From NCBI GenBank assembly GCA_025980475.1, contig JAICXL010000011.1, positions 1-44,829 of the forward strand: 44,829 bases of DNA. The letters are read 5' to 3'. Positions 19,747-24,684 of the stretch are shown piece after piece (position 1 is the first letter of the stretch; each line of letters opens with the position of its first letter). The notes under the pieces are model-generated. The model was not told the DNA's origin, searched no databases, and saw nothing but the letters and a program-made list of their open reading frames with translations. This stretch comes from Nocardioidaceae bacterium. GTDB lineage: Bacteria > Actinomycetota > Actinomycetes > Propionibacteriales > Nocardioidaceae. A program made the position numbers and the translations under genes.

Positions 19747-20964
19747 ATGGCCAAGATGGAATTGCGCCACGTGGGGAAGGTCTATCCCGACGGCACCCGC
19801 GCGGTCACCGACCTGAACATGCGGATCGACGACGGTGAGTTCGTCGTCTTCGTCGGCCCTTCGGGTTGTGGCAAGACCACGGCACTGCGCATGATCGCCG
19901 GGCTCGAGACGATCAGCGAGGGCGAGATCGAGATCGGCGACCGGGTGGTCAACGACGTACCACCCCGCGACCGGGACGTGGCGATGGTCTTCCAGTCCTA
20001 CGCGCTCTACCCCCACCTCAGCGTCCGGGACAACATCGGGTTCGGCCTGCAGCTGCGCAAGGTCCCCAAGCGTGAGCTCAACAGGCGGGTGGAGGAAGCC
20101 GCCAAGATCCTCGGCCTGACCGATCACCTCGACCGCAAGCCCCGCAACCTCTCCGGAGGGCAACGGCAACGGGTTGCGATGGGCCGCGCGATCGTGCGCG
20201 AGCCACAGGCATTCCTGATGGACGAACCGCTGAGTAACCTCGACGCCAAGCTGCGGGTCCAGATGCGTGCGGAGATCGGCAAGCTCCAGCGCGACCTCGC
20301 CGTCACCACCATCTACGTCACCCACGACCAGACCGAGGCAATGACCCTGGGTCACCGCGTCGCGGTGATGAAGCTCGGCGTCCTCCAGCAGATCGCCCCG
20401 CCGCAGGTGCTCTACGACCACCCGGACAACCTCTTCGTGGCCGGGTTCATCGGCTCCCCGGCGATGAACTTCATGCCGGGCACGCTGCGCCGGGACGACA
20501 CCGGTCACCGCGTCGAAGTCGGCCAGCAGTCGATCTCCGTGCCGGACAAGGTCGTCGCCGAACGTCCAGCGCTGGCGTCCTACGTCGACAAGGACGTGGT
20601 GATCGGCTTCCGGCCCGAGGACGTCGACGACGCCGCGATCACCAAGCCCGACCCCGGCCGCTCGTTCGTCGGCACCGTCGAGCTGGTCGAACCCCTCGGG
20701 TCCGACCTGATGGTGCACGTGTCGACCGATGCGCCCCCGCTCACCGAGAGCGAGGACCTGGCCGAGCTCGGCAAGGACAGCGACGCGGGTGCGCCGTTGG
20801 GCGACCGGACGCGGGTGGTCGCACGGTTCAACCCGCGAAGCCGGGTGCAGATCGGTGAGCAGGCGACGATGAGCCTGGACACCGAGCGATTCCATTTCTT
20901 CGACCCCCAGACCGGCCGTTCGATATGGGCCCACCAACCCGCGGACCCAACGCACGATTCCTAG
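19747..20964 (+). CDS. ugpC: Carbohydrate ABC transporter ATP-binding protein (UgpC/MalK/MsmK type)
   Basis: The 405-residue cytoplasmic ATPase powers the sugar importer encoded downstream. Walker [10 protein letters not shown] is at 37-45, the signature LSGGQRQRV starts at 135, Walker B FLMDEP contains Asp159, and the switch is in [10 protein letters not shown]. The C-terminal MalK/TOBE regulatory region (from about 235, with [12 protein letters not shown] and IGFRPEDV) marks the CUT1 class. The symbol is the family label, not a substrate claim. The TAG stop is fused to the AGGAGGAG ribosome-binding site of the next gene. In this class one ATPase can serve several transporters. Confidence 0.93.
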
Positions 20965-20973
20965 GAGGAGAAA

Positions 20974-22335
20974 GTGGCACCACGCAGAAAGTTCCTCTGC
21001 ATCGCTGCGGCCGCGGTCGCGTCGAGCGTTGCCGTCGCCGGCTGCGGCGGCGGCTCGACGCCCAGCAGTGGCGGCTCGCCCAGCGGCGCGAGCAGCAGCT
21101 CCGGTTCGGCCGGTCACAACCTGGACGGCCAGAGCTTCACCATCCTCGGCCAGTGGACCGGCGGGGAGCAGGCAGCCTTCGAGGCCGTGATCAAGCAGTT
21201 CGACGACAAGACGGGGGCGACCGGGCACTACACACCCGCCGCCGGCGGGAACGAGGCGGGGGTGCTGGGCACGAAGGTGGCGGGTGGGACCCCGCCCGAC
21301 ATCGCGATCCTGTCGTTGCCCGGCGCGATCGCCCAGTACGCGTCGTCGAGCAAGATCTTCCCGGTGTCGACCGCCACCCAGCAGGTGGTGGGGCAGAACT
21401 TCGCCTCCGAGTGGGGCAAGCTCGGCTCCTACCAGGGGAAGATGTACTGCGTTCCGGTGGACGCCTCCAACAAGTCAACCGTCTGGTACAACAACGACCT
21501 GTTCAAGACGGCCGGGATCAGCTCGACACCACAGACGTGGCCGGACCTGATCAAGGACGCCAAGACCCTGTCTGCATCCGGGGTGAGCGTGCCGGTGTCT
21601 GTCGGGGGTGGTGACGGCTGGACGCTGACAGACTGGTTCGAGAACGTCTACCTGCGCACCGCCGGCATCGCCAAGTACAACCAGCTCACCCAGCACAAGA
21701 TCAAGTGGACCGACCCGTCGGTGGCCAAGGCGCTGGAGACCTTGAAGCAGATCTGGGGCGACCCACAGCTGATCGGTTCCCCGGCGGCCGCGGTCAAGGT
21801 TCCCTTCACCGCGTCGGTGGACAACGTCTTCAAGGCGAACCCGACCTCCGCGATCGTCTACGAGGCCAGCTTCGTGGCCACCACCATCACCGGGGACAAG
21901 GACCCGGCCAAGGTCGGTGTCACGGCCAAGGTGTTCCCGTTCCCGTCCATCGACGGCTCGGGCTCCGTCGTCGAGGCAGCCGGTGACTTCGGCTGCGCGT
22001 TCACCAAGAACAAGGCCGCAGACCAGTTCCTGGCCTACCTCGCGGGGCCCCAGGCGGCCACCACCCTGGTGTCCACCCCGGGCAGCGGCTTCCTGTCGGT
22101 GAACAAGAACGTCCAGTCGTCGTCCTACAACGACCCGACGTCGGCTCAGCTGGCCGAGCAGATGGTCAAGGTGGGCAACAACTTCGTGTTCGACATGTCC
22201 GACCAGACTCCCGCGGCGTTCGGTGGGACGCCCAACAAGGGTGAGTGGGGCGACCTGCAGCAGTTCCTGACGAACGGGAACGTCCAGGCGGCCCAGCAGC
22301 AGCTGGAGAAGGACGCGGCGGCGGCCTACAAGTAG
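20974..22335 (+). CDS. Carbohydrate ABC transporter substrate-binding lipoprotein
   Basis: The 453-residue protein has a lipoprotein signal with lipobox VAGC (Cys24) and a Gly/Ser linker, then an extracellular solute-binding domain of the family 1 type. ILGQWTGGEQAAFEAVIKQF, AGGTPPDIAILSLPG and WYNNDLFKTAGI resemble alpha-glucoside-type (AglE-like) binding proteins, so maltose-like or trehalose-like sugars are plausible but unproven. The GTG at 20974 follows a strong AGGAGGAG. It delivers sugar to the two permeases downstream. No glycosidase is in the window. Confidence 0.9.
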   Translation: MAPRRKFLCIAAAAVASSVAVAGCGGGSTPSSGGSPSGASSSSGSAGHNLDGQSFTILGQWTGGEQAAFEAVIKQFDDKTGATGHYTPAAGGNEAGVLGTKVAGGTPPDIAILSLPGAIAQYASSSKIFPVSTATQQVVGQNFASEWGKLGSYQGKMYCVPVDASNKSTVWYNNDLFKTAGISSTPQTWPDLIKDAKTLSASGVSVPVSVGGGDGWTLTDWFENVYLRTAGIAKYNQLTQHKIKWTDPSVAKALETLKQIWGDPQLIGSPAAAVKVPFTASVDNVFKANPTSAIVYEASFVATTITGDKDPAKVGVTAKVFPFPSIDGSGSVVEAAGDFGCAFTKNKAADQFLAYLAGPQAATTLVSTPGSGFLSVNKNVQSSSYNDPTSAQLAEQMVKVGNNFVFDMSDQTPAAFGGTPNKGEWGDLQQFLTNGNVQAAQQQLEKDAAAAYK

Positions 22336-22346
22336 GCCGTTGACGA

Positions 22347-23765
22347 GTGTCGACCGAAATGCCCGAGGACGCGAGGGTGGCGCCGGCCGCCCCCACCTCC
22401 CCACCGGCTGTGGCGGGCGGGGCAGGGGTGGGGGCCGGCCGCGCGCAGCCTCCCGGGAAGACCAAGCCGCCGAGGCTGCCCGGGGAATCCCGCTGGGTGG
22501 CCGCCCTCTTCATCTTCCCGGCCGGGATCTGGCTAGCAGCGATCGTGCTCTACCCGCTCGTCTACACCCTGATCCGCAGCCTTTTCCACGACGGCCCGGT
22601 CGGCCAGGCCACCTCCTTCGCCGGGATCCAGAACTACATCGACATCTTCACCCAGTCCGACTCGTTCGAGGCCTTCAAGAACAACGTCATCTGGGTCGTG
22701 GTGGTGCCCGCGCTGGTCACCATCCTCGGACTGATCTTCGCCGTGCTCACCGAGCGGATCCGGTGGGCCTCGGCTTTCAAGATCATCGTGTTCACCCCGA
22801 TGGCGATCTCGTTCCTCGCCGCTGGCATCACCTGGTCGCTGATCTACGTCGACCAACCCAGCCAGGGGCTGGGCAACGCCGTGCTCACCGGGATCCACGA
22901 CACCGTCAGCCCCAGCGCTGCCTACCCGAACCTGCACCCCAGCACGCAGGTGACCCTCCTGGATGGCAGCTCGGCGAAGGGCTACACCACGAAGAAGCAG
23001 TACGCCGCGGGCGCACCCGCCGCGTTGCCCTTCACCGGTCTCGACCTGCTCCATCCGCCCAGCAATGCCCAGCCGGCCGCCCAGCCGTCCGGGAAGGGCC
23101 TGACCGGGGTGGTGTGGAACGACTTCAAGGCCGGCGGCGGGGGGACGCCCGGCAAGGTCGACCCGGGCGAGCTGGGCGTGCCCGGGGTGACCGTCCAGGC
23201 CCTTCAGGGGGGCAAGGTGGTCGGCTCGACCACGACCCAGCCCGACGGTGCCTTCAGCTTTCCGGGCCTCACCTCGGGCTCGTACACGCTCGAGCTGCCG
23301 GCCAGCGACTTCTCCGCCGCATACACCGGAGTCTCCTGGCTCGGTCCGACGCTGATCACACCGGCGATCATCATCGCCTACCTGTGGATCTACGCCGGGT
23401 TCGCGATGGTGCTGCTGGCTGCCGGCATGGCGGCCCTGCCCCGCGAGACGATGGAGGCTGCCCGCATCGACGGCGCCACGGAGTGGCAGGTCTTCCGGCG
23501 GGTGACGATGCCGCTGCTCTCACCGGTGCTGCTGGTGGTCTTCGTGACGATGGTGATCAACGTCCTGAAGATCTTCGACATCGTGTTCGTGATGCAGCAG
23601 CCGGCCGGTGGCAACGCGCGCTACGCCAACGTGCTCGCCGTGCAGCTGTACGACGAGTACGGCAACCAGCAGTACGGCGCGGCCAGTGCGGTCGGCATCC
23701 TGCTGGTGATCCTGGTGATCCCGGCGATGATCTTCCAGATCCACAACTTCAGGAAGTCGCAGTGA
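22347..23765 (+). CDS. MalF-type sugar permease with an inserted extracytoplasmic beta-domain
   Basis: At 472 residues this is about 160 longer than usual MalF-type subunits. A Pro/Ala/Gly-rich cytoplasmic head is followed by TM1 (WVAALFIFPAGIWLAAIVL), TM2, TM3 (FTPMAISFLAAGITWSLIY), then an insert of about residues 170-329, and TM4-6. The EAA loop MEAARIDGATEWQVFRRVTM is intact, so transport function is expected. Within the insert, about 250-324 (GLTGVVWNDFKAGGGG, GVPGVTVQALQ, PDGAFSFPGLTSGSYTLELP) looks like an SdrD-B/Cna-B-type beta-sandwich as found in surface adhesins. E. coli MalF also has an insert at this site (P2 loop), but of different sequence. GTG 22347 has a weak ribosome-binding site; ATG 22359 is an alternative. 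Confidence 0.88.
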   Translation: MSTEMPEDARVAPAAPTSPPAVAGGAGVGAGRAQPPGKTKPPRLPGESRWVAALFIFPAGIWLAAIVLYPLVYTLIRSLFHDGPVGQATSFAGIQNYIDIFTQSDSFEAFKNNVIWVVVVPALVTILGLIFAVLTERIRWASAFKIIVFTPMAISFLAAGITWSLIYVDQPSQGLGNAVLTGIHDTVSPSAAYPNLHPSTQVTLLDGSSAKGYTTKKQYAAGAPAALPFTGLDLLHPPSNAQPAAQPSGKGLTGVVWNDFKAGGGGTPGKVDPGELGVPGVTVQALQGGKVVGSTTTQPDGAFSFPGLTSGSYTLELPASDFSAAYTGVSWLGPTLITPAIIIAYLWIYAGFAMVLLAAGMAALPRETMEAARIDGATEWQVFRRVTMPLLSPVLLVVFVTMVINVLKIFDIVFVMQQPAGGNARYANVLAVQLYDEYGNQQYGAASAVGILLVILVIPAMIFQIHNFRKSQ

Positions 23766-23793: not shown

Positions 23794-24684
23794 ATGACCG
23801 TGGCCAGCAGCGACATCGTCACCGGTGCGATCAACCGCAGCCTTCCTGCCCGCGTCGTCGCGCGCACCGGCGGAGGGGTGCTGCGGATCTTCCTGATCGT
23901 CGTGGCGCTCGTGTGGCTGGTGCCGACGTTCGGGCTGCTCGTGGAGTCCTTCCGCGACCCGGCCCAGTACGCGAACGGCGGCTGGTGGGACGCCATCACC
24001 CACCCGGGCCAGCTGACCGCGCACAACTACGTGGAGCTGCTGAAGAACTCCACGATGACCTCCAGCTTCCTCAACACCATCGAGATCACCCTCCCGGCCA
24101 CGATCCTGGTGGTGCTGATCGGTTCGGCTGCCGGCTATGCCTTCGCCTGGATGGAGTTCCCCGGCCGCGACGCGATCTTCCTGCTCGTGGTCGGCCTGCT
24201 GGTGATCCCGATCCAGATCGCCCTGATCCCGGTCATCAAGCTCTACGGGCTGATGGGGATCTCCGGCACGATCCTCTCGGTGATCATGTTCCACGTGGGC
24301 TTCGGGCTGCCGTTCGCGATCTTCCTGCTGCGCAACTACTTCTCCGGGATCCCCCGCGACCTGATGGAGGCCGCCCGGATGGACGGTGCCAGCGAGGTGA
24401 AGATCTTCTTCAAGGTGATCCTGCCGTTGGGCATGCCTGCGATCGCCTCGCTGGGGATCTTCCAGTTCCTGTGGGTGTGGAACGACCTGCTGGTCGCGCT
24501 CGTCTTCTCCAACGCCACGAGCGAGCCGATCACGGTCGCCCTGGCCAGCCAGACCCGACAGTTCGGCAGCAGCATCGACATCCTCGCCCCCGGGGCCTTC
24601 CTGTCGCTGATCGTCCCGCTGATCGTCTTCCTGGCCTTCCAGCGCTACTTCGTCCAGGGCGTCATGGCCGGGTCGGTCAAGTAG
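23794..24684 (+). CDS. MalG-type sugar ABC permease
   Basis: The 296-residue protein has six predicted membrane helices (first FLIVVALVWLVPTFGLLVESF). The EAA loop MEAARMDGASEVKIFFKVILP is the contact for the ATPase. Its C-terminus FQRYFVQGVMAGSVK is typical of CUT1 second permeases. It starts 28 bp after the MalF-type gene with GAGGGGGG upstream, completing an ATPase, binding protein, MalF, MalG operon. Length is normal, in contrast with its partner. Confidence 0.93.
   Translation: MTVASSDIVTGAINRSLPARVVARTGGGVLRIFLIVVALVWLVPTFGLLVESFRDPAQYANGGWWDAITHPGQLTAHNYVELLKNSTMTSSFLNTIEITLPATILVVLIGSAAGYAFAWMEFPGRDAIFLLVVGLLVIPIQIALIPVIKLYGLMGISGTILSVIMFHVGFGLPFAIFLLRNYFSGIPRDLMEAARMDGASEVKIFFKVILPLGMPAIASLGIFQFLWVWNDLLVALVFSNATSEPITVALASQTRQFGSSIDILAPGAFLSLIVPLIVFLAFQRYFVQGVMAGSVK

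Follow-up and report, generated by a model that had tools for sequence, protein, structure and literature searches.

What is an adhesin-type domain doing inside the permease of a sugar importer? In the window, by which we mean the whole stretch of 44,829 nucleotides that was analysed, the third of four importer genes codes for a permease (PERM1) with a long extra region between its third and fourth transmembrane segments (TM3 and TM4). The four genes, for an ATPase, a substrate-binding protein (SBP), PERM1 and a second permease (PERM2), form an operon that is a standard sugar importer. The features discussed here are as follows.

19,747 to 20,964, forward strand: ABC ATPase of the importer, 405 aa, UgpC/MalK-like (Pfam ABC_tran, OB_MalK and TOBE_2; NF008653)
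20,974 to 22,335, forward strand: SBP, 453 aa (Pfam SBP_bac_1, E 9.2e-20)
22,347 to 23,765, forward strand: insert-bearing permease PERM1, 472 aa, six TM segments by hydropathy (open ORF, Pfam and MalF alignment)
22,893 to 23,330, forward strand: whole insert, predicted to be extracytoplasmic, residues 183-328, between TM3 and TM4 (alignment with insertless relatives and with E. coli MalF)
22,893 to 23,096, forward strand: residues 183-250, the less conserved N-terminal half of the insert, in which Pfam finds nothing (pairwise identity averages 0.31 in 48 operons)
23,109 to 23,300, forward strand: SdrD_B/CarboxypepD_reg-like domain, residues 255-318 (Pfam; PDB profile match to SdrD)
23,454 to 23,525, forward strand: EAA (coupling) loop, residues 370-393, cytoplasmic (invariant E370 A371 A372 D375 G376 A377 ... 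P389)
23,794 to 24,684, forward strand: second permease PERM2, MalG-type, 296 aa, without insert (Pfam BPD_transp_1, E 2.9e-17)

The partner genes are of familiar kinds. The ATPase passes the UgpC subfamily model NF008653 with 460.7 bits against a cut-off of 432. The best PDB sequence matches of the SBP are chitin-oligosaccharide and glucose binding proteins (7eho and 2b3b), and it is probably a lipoprotein, because its start (…VAVAGCGGG) resembles a lipobox in the string AVAGC. The core of PERM1 is that of a MalF-type permease, as the initial annotation had it. The reading frame begins with GTG and is open throughout, BPD_transp_1 covers residues 328-464 (E 1.1e-18, 68 bits against a cut-off of 26.4), and a Kyte-Doolittle scan places the TM segments near 50-68, 114-132, 143-161, 340-358, 386-404 and 445-463. 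The EAA loop, described earlier as intact, is indeed there (E370-A-A...G376...P389), with its residues invariant across 30 PERM1 family members; domain and loop together make PERM1 a type I ABC importer permease of the MalF/SugA group. The scores for the sugar-specific NCBIfam equivalogs GlcT, UgpA and MalF all fall below the curated cut-offs, the best being GlcT (86.3 bits against 360), while MalF reaches 32.4 against 392. SugA of the trehalose importer (8ja7_A) has the same core type and matches PERM1 on both flanks of the insert: PERM1 49-171 and 340-462 correspond to SugA 23-145 and 170-290, the first piece being weak (i-Evalue 0.33; 0.0049 for the close 7cad_A). About 25 residues separate the two pieces in SugA, where PERM1 has the insert.

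Site, side and domain content of the insert

The TM3-TM4 loop of PERM1 runs for 165 residues between residues 171 and 336. Its length is 163-175 residues in all 50 insert-bearers measured, which had been found with profiles containing the insert, as against 18-32 in the insertless relatives measured. The initial annotation was right that the protein is longer than usual, and its figure of about 160 residues was somewhat too high, the excess being about 135-145 relative to insertless relatives. It had also placed the insert at the P2 loop of E. coli MalF, and here the alignment with the MG1655 sequence leads elsewhere. PERM1 residue 90 aligns with MalF 257, 166 with 339, 330 with 360 and 340 with 371, which puts the insert in MalF 343-370, a stretch that we take to be P3 in the naming of MalF loops; P2 maps to the first loop of PERM1, at residues about 82-90. 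The hhalign comparison agrees: the family profile pairs residues 343-472 with MalF 371-510 (probability 97) and 93-181 with MalF 258-350 (probability 80). The insert lies outside the interval between the MalF TM segments at 73-91 and 285-303 that holds the P2 loop, and its sole alignment with the P2 sequence has a probability of 0.2%.

On which side of the membrane does the insert stand? TM4 follows it directly, with the cytoplasmic EAA loop next, and we therefore read it from the sequence as extracytoplasmic. The composition of residues 167-328 (7 Lys, 0 Arg, 8 Asp and 2 Glu), with its lack of arginine, and the alignment of the site with MalF 343-370 are further signs of this. In all 50 members the insert is free of cysteine.

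A Pfam search, which had been suggested as a check for residues 170-330, returned two overlapping families there above their curated cut-offs: SdrD_B at 255-318 (E 6.7e-9, 36.4 bits against 29.7) and CarboxypepD_reg at 274-326 (E 1.1e-7, 32.5 bits against 32.3). Pfam and the alignment thus agree on a predicted extracytoplasmic domain of the SdrD_B/prealbumin-like type between TM3 and TM4, and the limits first proposed for it, 250-324, come close to those of the Pfam match. When family members were scanned singly at E <= 0.01, PERM1 included, SdrD_B was found in 21 of 30 (nine lacked it) and CarboxypepD_reg in 24 of 30. The insert profile has S. aureus SdrD (10ps_A) as its best PDB chain, with E 3.2e-11. 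With HMMER E-values taken at face value, we judge that the SdrD_B match is not due to chance, because most members scanned match and the insert profile finds SdrD.

The resemblance to the B-domain of MSCRAMM adhesins (SdrD_B, PF17210) is significant and incomplete. The match covers profile positions 6-65 of 112, that to CarboxypepD_reg ends at position 63 of 82, and neither match takes in the full set of strands of the SdrD_B or prealbumin-like family. Since the SdrD_B match ends at position 65, the usual last strands appear to be absent from the insert or too altered to be recognized. The domain also differs from SdrD_B in standing as a single copy within a transporter. By profile comparison, then, the insert is the carrier of a partial member of the SdrD_B family. 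A circular permutation, in which the N-terminal half supplies the missing strands, was considered and rejected: in all five members tried, swapping the halves gained 0.1-1.4 bits for SdrD_B and 0.1-0.9 bits for CarboxypepD_reg, the matches reached at most positions 77 of 112 and 62 of 82, respectively, and the swapped versions gave no real support, although one single strand could still escape detection by this procedure.

Conservation is uneven along the protein. Over 48 operons the mean pairwise identity is 0.31 in the N-terminal half of the insert, 0.47 in the C-terminal half and 0.62 in the core. The best-kept residues of the beta-domain, among 50 members, are G254 (46), D259 (49), F260 (47), G266 (48), E275 (49), G277 (50), G289 (48), G301 (50), G311 (47) and F322 (50), and position 272 is Asp or Glu in 47 of the 50. 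D259, D/E272 and E275 presumably stand about where SdrD has the Asp and Glu residues of its calcium loop; unlike SdrD, the domain has a glycine run in the middle of this loop. Immediately before TM4, the motif W331-L332-G333 (WLG) is nearly invariant (49, 50 and 49 of 50 members).

Distribution and origin of the insert-bearing family

The initial annotation asked how widespread the insert is among actinobacterial homologues, and the answer is that it is widespread. In the class, a three-member profile finds matches at E <= 1e-38 in 69 of 394 genomes, that of the window included. The 90 matches listed all reach E 1.5e-129 or better and cover almost the full length of the profile, and the insert is present in all 34 of them that were aligned, PERM1 among these. 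The insert-region profile matches 25 of 396 genomes of the phylum and 5 of 294 of the family, own genome included in both counts; one of the phylum matches is fragmentary, in an open frame of 112 residues. In a sample of Chloroflexota, made up of genomes from the phylum of a Chloroflexota MAG, 19 of 201 genomes match the insert-region profile. Five of these have insert permeases (E 2.9e-56 to 8.5e-30); the other 14 match it in part, within open frames that range from 394 to 6426 residues. Insert-like stretches with E about 1e-6 to 1e-9 were observed in L155-L158 and other partial matches of this sample, and those in large frames are possible donors or cousins of the domain. Among named genome contigs, scanned with two narrow peptide patterns, 3 of 24 loci carry the insert (one Nocardioidaceae and two Marmoricola MAGs). 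Plasmid records of Nonomuraea gerenzanensis and ten Streptomyces match in a single piece over 85-90% of the protein; all eight of these eleven records that were fetched carry the insert. The gene table holds no features for the Nonomuraea stretch and one Streptomyces stretch, and six annotated records name the insert permease simply ABC transporter permease. Our taxonomic statements rest on group codes and a few named records.

Was the insert acquired once or repeatedly? Trees were built from the alignment columns of the permease core, excluding those of the insert, and two loci were omitted, L135 as too short and L146 as broken. The first tree, with 50 insert-bearers and 37 others, needs one insert change (SH-aLRT 99). 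The second, in which the same number of insert-bearers is set against 29 others, including ten sister operons of the Chloroflexota sample, also needs one (support 94/99), and one change suffices in 96% of 200 bootstrap trees. Insertless loops measure 19-32 residues in the first tree and 18-32 in the second; no loop between 32 and 163 residues occurs in the two tree sets, whose insert-bearers had been found with insert-containing profiles. Several outgroup rows are long branches, two of them in the second tree, and the root was not inferred. Gain is a simpler reading of these trees than loss, because the loop is short in every comparator, 37 in the first tree and 29 in the second. The nearest insertless relatives on the trees are permeases of about 310-340 aa to which we give the label AglF-like (alpha-glucoside type). 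They share the core and gene order with the insert family and differ from it in a TM3-TM4 loop of 18-32 as against 163-175 residues and in having no beta domain. As judged from the trees, the insert-bearing permeases are an old and conserved family of single origin. The word chimera, with its suggestion of a recent fusion, fits poorly with a protein family that forms one group on the trees and extends over two phyla.

Operon context and a test for covariation with the binding protein

The order SBP-PERM1-PERM2 on one strand is found in 48 of 51 loci scanned, a count that includes L112, whose SBP match is in two pieces, and L129, whose SBP is cut by a contig end. The three loci outside it are L135, which is cut by a contig end, L163, with the SBP gene on the other strand, and the broken L146. 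The last (G549:C13:99000-114000) holds the same operon in several short pieces, fragments of ATPase, SBP and permease following one another in the usual order; this points to a copy that has decayed or was poorly sequenced. Of the 51 loci, 18 have an ATPase gene immediately upstream in the same orientation. In 12 of the 51 a GH13 gene stands directly ahead of the SBP gene; these are the six annotated plasmid copies from Streptomyces, L112 (partial only) and five loci of group f22, which we take for Streptomyces. Six more loci (L087, L088, L089, L092, L105 and L132) have a weaker GH13 match nearby. The gene is annotated as 'glycoside hydrolase family 13' in five records and 'alpha-amylase family' in one. 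Among NCBIfam models it scores highest with those for beta-galactosidase BglA (394 bits, cut-off 900) and alpha,alpha-phosphotrehalase (323 bits, cut-off 799). In all six annotated Streptomyces plasmid copies (L106-L111) the GH13 gene follows another SBP gene; farther upstream, on the other strand, stands a PadR-family regulator gene with ABC transporter genes. A Streptomyces-type copy in L094, L095 and L102 is without an adjoining GH13 or ATPase gene and is flanked by large ORFs, whose start presumably resembles a family 2 glycosyltransferase; this copy may have a substrate other than that of the GH13-linked copy.

Ten insertless sister operons were fetched. Nine have SBP-PERM1-PERM2, one (L179) gave no SBP match, and their PERM2 homologues are 44-50% identical to PERM2. 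With an SBP gene in nine of these ten, the insert is not needed for SBP-dependent transport.

A mirror-tree test was run on 48 of the 51 operons; L112, L129 and L135 were excluded because their genes are incomplete. When core and PERM2 are controlled for, the insert does not correlate significantly with the SBP (partial Mantel r 0.078, p 0.13), and insert-SBP co-evolution was set aside on this result. The insert correlates with PERM2 (partial r 0.365, p 0.0005) and with the PERM1 core (0.377, p 0.0005), and the SBP correlates with the core (0.449, p 0.0005) and PERM2 (0.188, p 0.012). For the N-terminal half of the insert the correlation with the SBP is nominally positive (r 0.115, p 0.016, uncorrected), and for the SdrD_B half it is not significant over the 48 operons (r 0.03, p 0.37).

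A proposed role for the insert and its alternatives

How could such a domain serve an importer? By sequence, the PERM1 clade comprises MalF/SugA/AglF-type permeases with an SdrD_B-like domain in the TM3-TM4 loop and a leader of 65-70 residues. We propose that the domain stands next to the pore on the outside of the membrane, at the place where the SBP lands, and would provide a built-in docking or orienting surface, so that a loaded SBP may be captured and aligned before the scoop loop of PERM2 enters it. Substrates are probably alpha-glucosides or related oligosaccharides, to go by the GH13 neighbours in part of the family and the AglF-like sister group. MalF, another permease of a type I importer, likewise has a large domain on the extracytoplasmic side, P2, which has an Ig-like fold and contacts the binding protein. 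The insert occupies a different site, and hhalign found no sequence relationship between the two. On the docking reading, the insert would work like P2 and yet not be a member of the P2 kind: a counterpart of separate origin, made of a different domain in a different loop. The system PotD-PotABC offers another comparison. PotB has the same core type as PERM1, but one extra helix in its P2 loop, and according to PMC11414716 PotB and PotC differ notably in nothing but this loop; the same text has PotC T126, K127 and R145 bonding to the SBP, residues that we place in the P2 loop.

We tentatively regard help in docking or orienting the binding protein as the likeliest role of the insert. The points in its favour are the outer side, the single origin, the whole insert in 50 of 50 members, the linkage to an SBP gene and the GH13 gene in 12 of 51 loci; against it count the mirror-tree test, which does not single out the SBP, and the nine of ten insertless sister operons that also hold an SBP gene. 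A bolder form of this reading is unlikely as it stands: that a counterpart of MalF P2 evolved in Actinomycetota and Chloroflexota, in which an adhesin-type beta domain with a relic metal loop (D259, D/E272 and E275) captures the tethered SBP, its action depending on outside calcium.

Because the insert tracks PERM2 and the core rather than the SBP, our confidence in docking is limited and its main rival is a role within the permease pair. The insert may instead stabilize or regulate that pair, by packing on the outer loops of PERM2 or closing the outer gate with no direct capture of the SBP. The higher correlations with PERM2 and core than with SBP and the nearly invariant WLG motif before TM4 speak for this possibility, which we hold to be somewhat improbable: mirror-tree signals also reflect common ancestry and unequal rates, and PERM2 has no matching extra domain.

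That the insert is a glycan-binding module, holding a polymer or oligosaccharide near the pore, is less probable still. Prealbumin/CNA-B and CarboxypepD_reg-like domains often adjoin carbohydrate-active domains, and this company, with the GH13 gene in the operon at 12 loci, would suit such a function. The best-kept residues of the domain, however, are mostly Gly, Asp and Glu; no conserved aromatic set was seen in it besides F260, F303, Y313 and F322, which fit the fold core, and the SBP already supplies a binding site. Anchoring or spacing the transporter against peptidoglycan, which the initial annotation had entertained, is very doubtful. SdrD_B domains are the stalk repeats of wall-anchored adhesins and PERM1 has the string LPFTG at residues 228-232 (LPLTG in L144), but an LPxTG occurs in just 2 of 50 members, in mid-loop, with no sorting tail behind it as in the sorting signal of MSCRAMMs, and one short domain makes no stalk; anchoring via this string was rejected. 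Finally, the source genome is a draft of 114 contigs, but a misassembly, frameshift or recent one-off chimera is dismissed by the recurrence of the same full insert in 49 other loci measured, in two phyla and on plasmid records of named Streptomyces.

What does the insert mean for importers of this type? A search by title and abstract start, with most subscription papers outside it, found no printed description of the insert-permease family. The permease is of a known kind, hitherto annotated merely as ABC transporter permease in six records, and it represents a widespread, conserved variant of importer permeases. The comparison with MalF suggests that importer permeases gained large accessory domains on their outer side repeatedly, at different loops. 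With an insertion of single origin and sister operons without it, the idea that such a domain helps a binding protein to meet its transporter becomes testable by comparison.
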